This document shows positions 6,385 to 36,641 of a stretch of DNA of 40,041 nt, piece after piece. Every line of letters begins with the position of its first letter. Within the stretch, counting starts at the first letter, position 1. Source of the DNA: an uncultured Pelagibacteraceae bacterium. Lineage in GTDB: Bacteria > Pseudomonadota > Alphaproteobacteria > Pelagibacterales > Pelagibacteraceae. The notes under the pieces were generated by a model. It searched no databases. It was not told the origin of the DNA and worked only from the letters and a program-made list of their open reading frames with translations. The DNA is taken from assembly GCA_902598595.1 (NCBI GenBank), contig CACKCD010000007.1, positions 1 through 40,041 of the forward strand, given 5' to 3'. Position numbers and translations under genes: made by a program.

Positions 6385-6429
6385 ACTTTATACAATTGAC
6401 TTTTAGTTTTATTTAAAGGAAAGTATCCT

Positions 6430-6580
6430 TGTGACGGGAGATACTACTTTAATGTAGAGCCGAAGGAGCAACTACCCTAGAAACTCTCAGGCAAAAGGAC
6501 CGTTACCGTAATAACTCTGGAAAGCAGGCATTAGCCTCACCGAAGGATTAAATCTCTCAGGTACACAGACAGATAGGGTT
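6430..6580 (+). promoter_or_regulatory. Tandem glycine riboswitch (gcvT element)
   Basis: Two glycine aptamers lie end to end. The first has GACGGGAG (from 6433), the core GAAGGAGCAA (6462-6471), CTCAGGCAAAAGGACCG (6486-6502) and closing CTCTGGAAAG (about 6515-6524). The second has GCCTCACCGAAGG (about 6534-6546), a degenerate CTCAGGTACACAGACAGATAGGG (two adjacent parts, 6555-6577). Glycine riboswitches turn on the glycine cleavage genes when glycine is plentiful. Only about 15 bases separate the second aptamer from the gcvT ATG (6595) and no terminator hairpin is seen, so control is more likely at translation initiation or through P1 stability. Regulation of gcvT and malate synthase by glycine riboswitches has been reported in SAR11. 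Confidence 0.93.
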
Positions 6581-28220: not shown

Positions 28221-28318
28221 CTACTTGCAAAAACTGCATAGCTAAATTCAGCATTAATCAGTTCTTAAATATAATCAAATCTCTATAACGAAATCTTAAA
28301 TTAACAAGGGAGTTTTTT

Positions 28319-29611
28319 ATGAAAAAATACTTAGGATACTTTTTTGCTGGAACAGCCATTTATTTTGGCTTTGCAGGTTTAGGTTATGCCGAGACCACAG
28401 TATCAGCAGAAGTACAATACATATTTAATACCCTATTATTTTTAATGTCAGGTTTCTTAGTCATGTGGATGGCTGCAGGTTTTGCAATGTTAGAGTCAGG
28501 TTTAGTAACATCAAAAAGTGTATCTGCAATCTGTGCTAAAAATATAGGTTTATACTCAATAGCTGGAGTAATGTTCTGGTTAGTGGGTTATAATTTAGCT
28601 TATGGTATTCCAGAAGGTGGATACATTGGAACATTTACTCCATGGAGTGATGCTTCTTCTGTAGAAACTGGTTATTCAGACGGATCAGATTGGTTTTTCC
28701 AAATGGTTTTCTGTGCAACAACAATGTCAATTGTTTCTGGTACTTTAGCCGAAAGAATTAAGATTTGGCCGTTCTTCTTATTTGCCGCAATTCTAACTGG
28801 AATTATATATCCAATTTCAATGGGATGGCAATGGGGTGGTGGATGGTTATCGGTTGCTGGATTTTCAGACTTTGCTGGTTCAACATTAGTACATGCTGCA
28901 GGTGGTGCTGCCGCTTTAGCAGGTGCAATAGTGCTTGGAGCAAGATCTGGAAGATTTAGTTCTAGCGGCGGAGTGAAATCTATGACACCATTTGCTGCAT
29001 CATCAATTCCTTTAGCAACACTAGGAGTATTTATACTTTGGTTAGGTTGGTTCGGATTTAATGGTGGATCTCAATTAGCAGCTGGAACACTAGAAGATGT
29101 GTCCTCAGTAGCTACAATTTATATCAATACGAACTTAGCTGCAGGTGGTGGTGTTTTAGCCGCTGCAACTGTATCAAGAGTAATTGGTGGTAAAACTGAC
29201 GTAGTAATGATGCTTAACGGCGCGATAGCCGGTCTAGTAGGTATTACGGCAGAACCATTAACACCAAGTCCGTTAGCTGCAATCTTTATTGGAGCAATAG
29301 CAGGAGTATTAATGTACTTCTCAACTAAACTATTGTTTAAAATGAAAATTGACGACGTAGTTGGTGCCATCCCAGCGCACTTAGTAGCTGGAGTATGGGG
29401 TACATTAGCAGTGCCATTAACAAATGGAGATGTTTCTTTCGGAGCACAATTCTTAGGAACTATCTCAGTAGTGGTATTCGTATTCGTAGTCTCGTTTATT
29501 GTTTTCCAAATTATTAAAAATACAATTGGATTAAGAATAAGCAAAGAAGCTGAAAGACTAGGAACTGACAAAGCAGAAGTCGGTGTAATAGCTTACGGTA
29601 TAAGAGACTAA
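28319..29611 (+). CDS. amtB: Ammonium transporter, first of two paralogues
   Basis: The 430-aa protein has an N-terminal signal-like segment and about 11 membrane helices. Amt signatures: WMAAGFAMLESGLVTSKS (about 50-67), the pore-lining DFAGSTLVHAAGGAAALAGA (about 184-203) with the first twin His, GWFGFNGGSQ (about 240-249), and DDVVGAIPAHLVAGVWGTLA (about 344-363) with the second twin His. The tail KEAERLGTDKAEVGVIAYGIRD carries the conserved region touched by PII proteins. It imports ammonium. SD sequence AAGGGAG is at 28302-28308. The next gene is a close paralogue. Confidence 0.96.
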   Translation: MKKYLGYFFAGTAIYFGFAGLGYAETTVSAEVQYIFNTLLFLMSGFLVMWMAAGFAMLESGLVTSKSVSAICAKNIGLYSIAGVMFWLVGYNLAYGIPEGGYIGTFTPWSDASSVETGYSDGSDWFFQMVFCATTMSIVSGTLAERIKIWPFFLFAAILTGIIYPISMGWQWGGGWLSVAGFSDFAGSTLVHAAGGAAALAGAIVLGARSGRFSSSGGVKSMTPFAASSIPLATLGVFILWLGWFGFNGGSQLAAGTLEDVSSVATIYINTNLAAGGGVLAAATVSRVIGGKTDVVMMLNGAIAGLVGITAEPLTPSPLAAIFIGAIAGVLMYFSTKLLFKMKIDDVVGAIPAHLVAGVWGTLAVPLTNGDVSFGAQFLGTISVVVFVFVVSFIVFQIIKNTIGLRISKEAERLGTDKAEVGVIAYGIRD

Positions 29612-29654
29612 AATAACTCTAGTATCTCCTCCCTCGTTTTACTAGGAGAAGATT

Positions 29655-29687
29655 AAGGCCTGGGACCCTCCATGGTACCCGGGCCTT
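29655..29687 (+). terminator. Hairpin between the two amt genes; loop matches the next ribosome site
   Basis: AAGGCCTGGG (29655-29664) pairs with CCCGGGCCTT (29678-29687), ten pairs with one U-G, and the weakly T-rich ATTTATTTC follows, so it can act as the terminator of the first amt gene. The 13-base loop ACCCTCCATGGTA (29665-29677) is the exact reverse complement of 29755-29767, which contains the ribosome binding site of the second amt gene. This makes it a candidate RNA regulator as well. Confidence 0.75.
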
Positions 29688-29754
29688 ATTTATTTCAACT
29701 CTATTATGCATTTAAAACATAATTCTAAAAAGAAAAAACTGTTAAAACAATATC

Positions 29755-29767
29755 TACCATGGAGGGT
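29755..29767 (+). promoter_or_regulatory. Ribosome binding site of second amt gene, complementary to upstream loop
   Basis: TACCATGGAGGGT contains the Shine-Dalgarno core GGAGGG, placed 3 bases before the ATG at 29770, an unusually short spacer if GGAGGG is the whole site. All 13 bases pair with the loop at 29665-29677. Pairing would block translation of the second amt gene; opening it would need a change in the upstream hairpin, a protein, or a separate transcript. Confidence 0.65.
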
Positions 29768-29769
29768 AA

Positions 29770-31059
29770 ATGAAAAAAAAATCACTTATTTTATTAAGCG
29801 TTCTTCTTACTTTAGTTCTTAGTGGAACAAGTATTGCAGAAACGACGATGTCTCAAGAGGGGCAATATATCTTTAATTCACTAGGATTTTATCTTGGAGG
29901 TGTATTAGTGGCTTTTATGGCTGCAGGATTTTGTATGCTAGAGAGCGGTTTAGTAACAACTAAAAGCGTATCTACAATTGCTGCAAAAAATATAGGAAAA
30001 TTTGCTATATGCTCATTAATATTTTTTCTAGTAGGTTATAATCTAGCTTATGGAGTGCCAGAAGGTGGGTATATCGGATCTTTTACTATTTGGACCGACA
30101 CAACAAACACTGAAACTGGTTACTCAGGTTATTCAGATTGGTTTTTTCAAACTATGTTTGTTTGCGCAACTGCATCTATAGTATCTGGAGCAGTAGCAGA
30201 AAGAATTAAAATTTGGCCATTTTTCTTATTTGCGGCAATAATGGCTGGAGTAATTTATCCAATATCAATGGGATGGCAATGGGGTGGTGGATGGTTATCT
30301 TCTGCTGGCTTTTCTGATTTTGCCGGATCAACTTTAGTACATGCTTGTGGGGGAGCAGCTGCATTAGCTGGAGTAATTGTATTGGGACCCAGAAGCGGAA
30401 GATTTTCATCTCTAGGAGGGAAAAGAGTGATGGTCCCTTTTGCAGCTTCAAGTATTCCTCTTGTTACTCTTGGTACATTTTTACTTTGGTTTGGATGGTT
30501 TGGATTTAACGGTTTTAGCCAATTAGCAATGGGAACTTTTGACGATGTAAATGCTATTTCTAAAATTGCCGTAAATACACATTTAGCTGGAGCAGCAGGA
30601 ACTGTTACAGGAGCCGCAATCACAAGATTGATTGGTGGAAAAACAGATATAGTAATGATGTTAAATGGTGCATTAGCTGGATTGGTAGCAATTACTGCTG
30701 AACCATTAACTCCAGGGCCTATTACTGCTATGATAATTGGATCCTTAGGTGCTGTTATAATGTATTACGGAACTAAGATGCTTGAAGGTTTTGGTCTAGA
30801 CGATGTTGTTGGAGCCATTCCGGTTCATATGTTTGCTGGAATTTTTGGAACATTAGTAGTTCCTTTTACAAATAGTGATACTACATTTGTAACACAATTT
30901 ATTGGAATGTTTTCAGTTGTAGCATTTAGTTTTGTACTTTCTTATTTGGCTTTTATTGCTATGAAAGCAACAATAGGTCTAAGAATAAGTAAGGAAGCTG
31001 AAAAACTTGGGACTGATAAAGCAGAAGTAGGAGTAACAGCTTACTCTATTAGAGATTAA
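29770..31059 (+). CDS. amt: Ammonium transporter, second of two paralogues
   Basis: The 429-aa protein closely resembles the preceding one over its whole length. Signatures: FMAAGFCMLESGLVTTKS (about 49-66), DFAGSTLVHACGGAAALAGV (about 183-202) with the first twin His, GWFGFNGFSQ (about 239-248), and DDVVGAIPVHMFAGIFGTLV (about 344-363) with the second twin His; the tail reads KEAEKLGTDKAEVGVTAYSIRD. An N-terminal signal-like segment (LILLSVLLTLVLSGTSIAE) precedes helix 1. It imports ammonium, perhaps with a different affinity from its neighbour. It arose by tandem duplication, since both genes share even the sequence type after the stop (ATTAAGGCC hairpin). Its ribosome site can pair with the loop upstream. 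Confidence 0.95.
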   Translation: MKKKSLILLSVLLTLVLSGTSIAETTMSQEGQYIFNSLGFYLGGVLVAFMAAGFCMLESGLVTTKSVSTIAAKNIGKFAICSLIFFLVGYNLAYGVPEGGYIGSFTIWTDTTNTETGYSGYSDWFFQTMFVCATASIVSGAVAERIKIWPFFLFAAIMAGVIYPISMGWQWGGGWLSSAGFSDFAGSTLVHACGGAAALAGVIVLGPRSGRFSSLGGKRVMVPFAASSIPLVTLGTFLLWFGWFGFNGFSQLAMGTFDDVNAISKIAVNTHLAGAAGTVTGAAITRLIGGKTDIVMMLNGALAGLVAITAEPLTPGPITAMIIGSLGAVIMYYGTKMLEGFGLDDVVGAIPVHMFAGIFGTLVVPFTNSDTTFVTQFIGMFSVVAFSFVLSYLAFIAMKATIGLRISKEAEKLGTDKAEVGVTAYSIRD

Positions 31060-31097
31060 ATAATTTCCTTCTCCCTCAAAGTGGTTGGAAATAAATT

Positions 31098-31127
31098 AAG
31101 GCCCAATATTTTGGGCCTTTTTTATTT
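31098..31127 (+). terminator. Rho-independent terminator after the second amt gene
   Basis: AAGGCCCAA (31098-31106) pairs perfectly with TTGGGCCTT (31111-31119) around TATT, and TTTTATTT follows. On the minus strand the same hairpin is followed by AATTTATTTCC, so it may also stop the converging gene at 31127-32116. It is the counterpart of the hairpin after the first amt gene, with which it shares the AAGGCC arm. Confidence 0.9.
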
Positions 31128-36402: not shown

Positions 36403-36469
36403 TTAACACTATGTTTAAAGGCACGTATAAGGTGATACCATTTTTTTTTTAATCTGATTTAATCTAATT

Positions 36470-36641
36470 AATTAAGAGGCAACTCTTAACTGGCCATTTA
36501 GGGAAAAACCGAGAGGTTCAAGCTTAAAGGGCAGAAAGGTGGACCTAGTAGCGCTAGAATAGTTCATCGGGAAGGCTTGGCGGTAGCGCCTAAAACGACG
36601 AGCCAAAACTACTAAATTTCTGGGCGAAAGCCTAGAAATTT
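36470..36641 (+). ncRNA. Probable structured RNA of unidentified family
   Basis: The gap between mnmA and the next minus-strand gene is less AT-rich than its surroundings and full of hairpins. On the plus strand: TTAAGAG/CTCTTAA with a GCAA loop (36472-36489); AACC/GGTT with a GAGA loop (36507-36518); GGCG/CGCC around GTAG (36579-36590) inside GGCT/AGCC (36574-36577 with 36601-36604); and a 12-pair stem with a GAAA loop (36614-36641). TAGTAG (36545-36550) can pair with CTACTA (36609-36614). Three GNRA loops appear only when read on the plus strand, which sets direction. I checked it by eye against tmRNA, RNase P, 4.5S and 6S cores without a match. Confidence 0.7.

Follow-up and report, generated by a model that had tools for sequence, protein, structure and literature searches.

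A candidate anti-Shine-Dalgarno element at the 3′ end of a SAR11 ammonium transporter mRNA, predicted to lower translation of the neighbouring paralogue

Introduction

In Salmonella, the RNA NarS, which comes from the 3′ end of narK, represses the related transporter nirC, a distant target, and uses Hfq. The Cuckoo RNAs (CcsR) of Rhodobacter bring C-rich loops resembling anti-Shine-Dalgarno (anti-SD) sequences into the Alphaproteobacteria. In the icaR mRNA of Staphylococcus aureus, a UCCCCUG motif of the 3′-UTR pairs with the SD of the same mRNA and hinders the initiation of translation, keeping the 30S subunit from binding and creating a site for RNase III; the available passages of that report leave open whether the pairing is made in cis or in trans (PMC3868564). 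The nitrogen-related NfeR1/alpha-r14 sRNAs of alpha-rhizobia hold anti-SD motifs unpaired in hairpins with highly variable stems, and NfeR1 silences ntrBC and the mRNAs of transporter components, according to the passages available (PMC10746234).

The locus described here consists of two neighbouring ammonium transporter genes, amt1 and amt2, of a SAR11 bacterium. Going by those same passages, it shares with icaR a C-rich 3′-UTR motif complementary to an SD. Unlike icaR, which targets its own mRNA, the amt1 element would target the paralogue (a hairpin further upstream, HP1, is only partly complementary to the SD of amt1 itself), its motif sits in a terminator-type loop (that of HP2), and the support for it is entirely comparative. 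The likeness to NfeR1 lies in HP1, whose loop motif persists on strongly varying stems; this is a likeness of behaviour, not homology, and comes from a search seeded on C-rich cores. NfeR1 is a trans-acting sRNA with three hairpins, each carrying CCUCCUCCC in the loop, whereas the amt1 3′ end has two hairpins, with only CTCCTCCC of that motif in HP1 and CCCTCC in HP2, and is an mRNA end with lineage-specific loops tuned to one gene. The amt1 element would thus work like icaR and NfeR1 yet fails a defining feature of each, making it a variant of 3′-end anti-SD regulation. As with NarS, the 3′ end of one transporter would repress another; unlike NarS, the target is a neighbouring paralogue and no Hfq was found. 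From CcsR, the element differs in host gene and motif.

A literature search, with subscription papers mostly outside its range, found no description of an amt1 3′-end/amt2 SD element. In the passages available, published SAR11 RNA motifs are located elsewhere, and an intergenic table lists a spacer that precedes an amt gene, hupA-amtB (PMC2704228); those of the SAR11 primary transcriptome report strong expression of amt and give no detail of an amt-amt spacer (PMC5069720). No known Rfam RNA or riboswitch matches the amt spacer at gathering threshold. The two Rfam matches in the analysed DNA lie elsewhere: a glycine riboswitch aptamer at 6425-6512 (+; 64.5 bits) and an IMES-2 RNA motif at 36465-36606 (+; 153.2 bits).

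The reading favoured here, to which a probability of about 0.68 is given, is that the 3′ end of the amt1 mRNA is a riboregulatory anti-SD element lowering the translation of amt2, probably in trans.

The amt1–amt2 spacer

The stretch of DNA analysed (the window) is 40,041 nt long, positions 1-40,041 of contig CACKCD010000007.1 in assembly GCA_902598595.1, from an uncultured Pelagibacteraceae bacterium (SAR11). The two transporter ORFs, amt1 (28319..29611), whose mRNA carries the 3′ element, and amt2 (29770..31059), lie on the + strand, as do all the features that follow. Against NCBIfam TIGR03644 (marine subtype), amt1 scores 566.8 bits, above the cut-off of 514, and amt2 scores 499.8 bits, slightly under it; on the protein tree they fall in the amt1 and amt2 clades, respectively.

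Two hairpins follow amt1. HP1 (29625..29649; stem TCTCCT/AGGAGA, loop CCCTCGTTTTACT) is anti-SD-like and was found by the search seeded on C-rich cores. HP2 (29655..29687), identified by sequence, folding and a match to the R1 model introduced below, is a terminator-type hairpin in which a GC-rich 10-bp stem, AAGGCCTGGG (29655-29664) with CCCGGGCCTT (29678-29687), encloses the loop ACCCTCCATGGTA (29665..29677). Complementarity and a partner-swap test mark this loop as a putative anti-SD of amt2. The first-pass annotation had reported that all 13 loop bases are complementary to the ribosome site of amt2, including its GGAGGG SD, and both observations hold: the target TACCATGGAGGGT (29755..29767) is the exact reverse complement of the loop and covers the SD, with the amt2 start at 29770.

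Between HP2 and the SD lies an imperfect palindrome, TTATGCATTTAAAACATAA (29704..29722), picked out in an alignment of 68 spacers and kept in most groups. It is similar to TTGCAAAAACTGCATAGC upstream of amt1, and we infer a role as an operator or promoter element of amt2. A putative extended −10 element, TGTTAAAAC (TGATAAATT in relatives), occupies 29740..29748, and is named from position and resemblance. These elements suggest a separate amt2 transcript starting between HP2 and the SD; amt2 may therefore have transcripts that lack the hairpin, which favours action in trans. Inverted motifs of the form TGCA-N-CATA are alike at 29704-29722 and 28225-28242, that is, upstream of each amt gene, and are possibly sites of a shared regulator. 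Beyond amt2, the C-rich-core search returned an HP1-like hairpin (31063..31092; ATTTCC/GGAAAT, with CTCCCTC in the loop), and the parsed terminator of amt2 (31098..31119) has an ordinary TATT loop that serves as a control.

The length of the match is a poor guide to its significance. The first-pass annotation had taken a 13-base match that fills a loop and lands on a ribosome site to be very unlikely by chance, but three exact 13-base inverted matches at distances of 40-250 bases occur in the window, where 200 first-order Markov simulations lead one to expect 1.2. Length as stand-alone evidence was therefore rejected, leaving placement and conservation to carry the weight. The other two matches are AT-rich. 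With hairpins defined strictly and ORFs limited to at least 90 codons, the window has three hairpin/ORF-start pairs only, and the two besides HP2/amt2 give 4-base matches. The 13-mer occurs without mismatch at these two places only in its own genome (assembly 65.6% complete). RNAfold predicts that the HP2 hairpin forms, yet ACC pairs with GGU within the loop, leaving six tip bases open; the region 29640-29800 folds better than shuffled sequences (z −3.36).

The full end-to-end fit was seen in the window genome only; in the five other members of its amt2 clade the uninterrupted pairing is 9 or 10 bases long. The additional matched bases of the window are on the SD side: CATGG is preceded by TAC in the window and by CAA, AAA or ATA in relatives, and the base after the G run is T in the window and A in four of the five clade relatives.

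Co-change of loop and ribosome site within the genus

The genus was sampled through 169 genomes, 137 of them with an amt match at E 1e-60, from which 118 stretches were taken and their ORFs parsed. This gave 71 tandem amt1-amt2 loci, including the window, after removal of duplicates and other genera. The upstream (amt1) terminator loop contains CCC or CCTCC in all 71, and CCC in 69. None of the 69 downstream amt2 terminator loops parsed from the same loci contains CCC; these control loops are mostly of four bases, for example GAAA (52/69), and are comparable in composition only, not in run length. Terminator loops of solo amt2-type genes also lack CCC (0/17 parsed). The SDs of these solo genes (n = 19, the contig-edge L191 omitted) are mostly of the GGAG kind, the exceptions being L220 with AACAAGGGGG (GGGGG) and L207 with AACAAGGGA (GGGA).

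The longest Watson-Crick run between a loop and the SD of its own locus is 4-13 bases, and is at least 6 in 55 of the 71 tandem loci: 13 (one locus), 10 (2), 9 (6), 8 (1), 7 (25), 6 (20), 5 (10) and 4 (6). The pairing takes different forms by lineage, as CCCTCCATG/CATGGAGGG, TTCCCCC/GGGGGAA, TCCCTC/GAGGGA, or C runs with G runs. Within the CATGGAGGG clade, L150 has ATCCTCC/GGAGGAT, a two-sided change from C-G to T-A that keeps the pairing. Among matrix representatives, loops of this clade pair over 8-13 bases with own-clade SDs, 3-6 with G-run SDs and up to 7 with L232. The co-change of loop and ribosome site across lineages, which the first-pass annotation had named as a check, is thus found, and independent drift was not observed. 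Since loop and ribosome site change together, a selected RNA interaction between the HP2 loop and the amt2 SD is likely.

The CATGGAGGG type is a single clade on the amt2 tree (6 rows, support 100/100), whereas its members are dispersed on the amt1 tree (L147, L148, L149, L150, L151 and the window). This suggests that the spacer and amt2 have been exchanged together by recombination, travelling as a block, so genome counts are not event counts.

Loop size is coupled to the terminator tail. An interrupted T tract follows 60 of the 71 tandem hairpins; in 59 of the 60 the loop measures 11-16 bases, and most pair over at least 6. The 11 tandem loci with an unbroken tract all have C loops of 4-5 bases and only 4-5 pairs. 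This association counts toward action in cis. The tail is likewise interrupted behind 57 of 69 amt2 terminators, and an interruption need not, therefore, imply read-through. Where amt1 is single, with no amt2 downstream, a CCC or CCTC loop is kept in 26 of 28 loci (L236-L254, L256-L259, L261-L263). Other targets are therefore possible, and amt2 may not be the sole reason for the C-rich loop. The terminator loop of L255 is GAAA; it looks like a deletion took amt2 together with HP2 there.

Other SAR11 groups and reversed gene order

An order-wide search for further amt pairs yielded loci of family f2 and of genus g6. In f2, four of the five same-order pairs have a match of 8-11 bp between the amt1 terminator loop and the downstream amt2 SD (Watson-Crick bases: L300, 8; L301, 11; L302, 10; L305, 10), written in other sequences, TCCCCTTAATT/AATTAAGGGGA, CTCCCCTTAA/TTAAGGGGAG and TCCCTTATTT/AAATAAGGGA, with L301, L302 and L305 each having a form of their own. 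The fifth, L304, has an amt1 loop without a match to the amt2 SD. By eye, the terminator loop of amt2 itself in L304, ATATCCCCTC, shortly matches its own SD, AGGGGA.

Two f2 loci have the genes in reversed order. The protein tree separates amt1 and amt2 clades (100/99) and places the second gene of L303 and L306 in amt1. In both loci the loop of the amt1 terminator can pair with the SD of amt2, which here lies upstream, over 12 bp in L303 and 8 bp in L306, each including one GU, and the spacer terminators of both loci have no comparable match. The L303 match is strong (reached by 0/2,000 shuffles of the SD region) and that of L306 weak (P 0.0165). The amt pair of genome G212 (L308/L309), the sole unlinked pair examined, has no match evident by eye.

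With the partners of 11 lineage representatives exchanged at random, the helix sum averaged 64.9; the observed partners gave 98, a value reached by 0/20,000 permutations, and a duplex-energy score of 164 against 113.7, likewise with 0/20,000, for lineages and loop boundaries that were picked after inspection of the sequences, with one entry (L298) that is not a terminator loop. A seven-lineage test gave p 3e-4 (helix) and 5.5e-4 (energy). The f2 family alone gives a weak result (p 0.12 for helix length, 0.044 for duplex energy), because f2 loops pair nearly as well with one another's SDs, cross-lineage pairs often equalling own ones in length, up to 15 bases. L232 alone, compared with shuffled SD regions, is not significant (P 0.053). 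In genus g6, of the same family as the window, CGTTATCTC stands opposite GAGATAA(T/C)G in 19 of 21 tandem loci; the hairpin that carries it precedes the terminator and is also present in single-amt loci with other SDs, which makes this complementarity weak evidence.

The upstream hairpin and the R1 model

A hairpin of the HP1 type was found upstream of the HP2 position in 120 of 186 amt 3′ regions: 70/71 upstream tandem amt1, 28/28 single amt1, 16/18 single amt2 and 6/69 downstream amt2. Because the search started from C-rich cores, loop C is present by construction; CCCTCG, found in 109 of the 120 loops, and the diversity of the stems are not. Those stems are unrelated in sequence (TTCCC/GGGAA, TCTCC/GGAGA, TTCTAAC/GTTAGAA, TAACTTAT/ATAAGTTA, ATTTCC/GGAAAT). 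A single mismatch separates the HP1 loop CTCCCTCGTT from full complementarity to the amt1 SD AACAAGGGAG. An anti-SD function of HP1 is a guess.

RNAalifold, applied to a 28-sequence alignment in which the 3′ arms of HP1 are poorly aligned, retained the nine base pairs of HP2 only and left HP1 unpaired, and HP1 was entered in the R1 model (HP1 plus HP2) as sequence, not helix. The model matches the window at 29614-29690 (E 2.2e-15, the window being among the model's own sequences) and has matches at E ≤0.01 in 49 of 61 genomes. Those with E <1e-4 lie at amt 3′ ends by their coordinates; some weaker ones (E 8e-4 to 0.01) lie away from amt 3′ ends.

Discussion

In the proposed mechanism, HP2 would expose its loop to base-pair with the SD of amt2, and the pairing would lower translation initiation by blocking the 30S subunit, with RNase cleavage as a possible further step. 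The released 3′ end of the amt1 mRNA would probably present the hairpin and act on amt2 mRNA in trans, aided by the closeness of the two genes; transcripts reading through from amt1 into amt2 would undergo silencing in cis too. Abundant amt1 mRNA would then hold amt2 protein down. The transcript ends, the pairing in cells, the repression and the link to nitrogen status are all inferred from sequence. The first-pass annotation had put forward two routes, a pseudoknot in cis or a freed 3′ end acting in trans, and had suggested a possible nitrogen switch. Trans action is favoured by L303 and L306, where the match survives the reversed order, and G212, whose unlinked pair has no match, points to cis. 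Hfq was found in 0/41 genomes, many of them incomplete, by a search that did find it in Caulobacter as a control, so the pairing would need to be independent of Hfq.

Two other RNA-level readings compete with this one. Action in cis alone, in which a loop-SD pseudoknot in read-through transcripts blocks ribosomes and insulates an amt2 made from its own promoter only, would suit the coupling of loop size to T tract, the promoter-like element between hairpin and SD, and the G212 pair. It sits badly with the reversed-order loci, where the SD of an upstream amt2 is matched by the amt1 loop but not by the spacer terminator, with the C-rich loops of single-amt1 loci and with the interrupted tails behind most amt2 terminators, and is judged unlikely. 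Rather unlikely, too, is a general anti-SD RNA whose HP1 and HP2 loops hit many mRNAs, including the SD of amt itself, with amt2 as one target. The NfeR1 precedent of anti-SD loops on variable stems, as far as the passages available describe it (PMC10746234), speaks for it, as do the CCCTCG that HP1 retains on unrelated stems, solo amt2 genes included, the near-complement of the amt1 SD in HP1, and the HP2 loops that are C-rich even without amt2. What it leaves unexplained is that HP2 complementarity passes beyond the SD core toward amt2 (CATG, AATT and AAAT flanks) and switches with amt2.

Explanations at the level of DNA are given far less weight. Inverted-repeat correction by template switching between the arms could create complementarity without function, and the window's own match, which reaches the loop ends, beyond the likely need of an RNA loop, and has its extra bases on the SD side, might owe to it something of its 13-base fit beyond that of relatives. 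As an account of the whole pattern it is very unlikely, because it would not single out, in many lineages, a terminator loop and an SD for the matches, nor reach over an entire gene pair where the order is reversed, and SD and loop retain functional form. A DNA-binding regulator reading both sites as an inverted repeat is more improbable still: the window lineage has a palindromic CCATGG, but other lineages have non-palindromic G-run/C-run pairs, and the sites coincide exactly with hairpin loop and SD.

The preferred reading, an anti-SD element in the amt1 3′ end, leads to a broader proposal that is tentative and falls short of being probable: across SAR11 families, the amt1 3′ end would be an Hfq-free trans-acting anti-SD RNA that sets the ratio of the two transporters, its pairing rewritten in each lineage but retained regardless of gene order. 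In the window's genus, for which no PII was found, it may replace part of the PII/GlnK control of Amt. A PII gene was found in 0/25 genomes of the window's genus (many incomplete) against 15/16 of family f2; as f2 has both PII and the loop-SD match, the element does not depend on PII having been lost.

SAR11 bacteria rank with the most numerous cells of the ocean and subsist on scarce nitrogen. A coevolving pairing of one 3′ end with the SD of a neighbouring paralogue would be an economical means of regulation, its bases predicted individually here, and suggests that terminator loops merit screening for complementarity to nearby ribosome sites.
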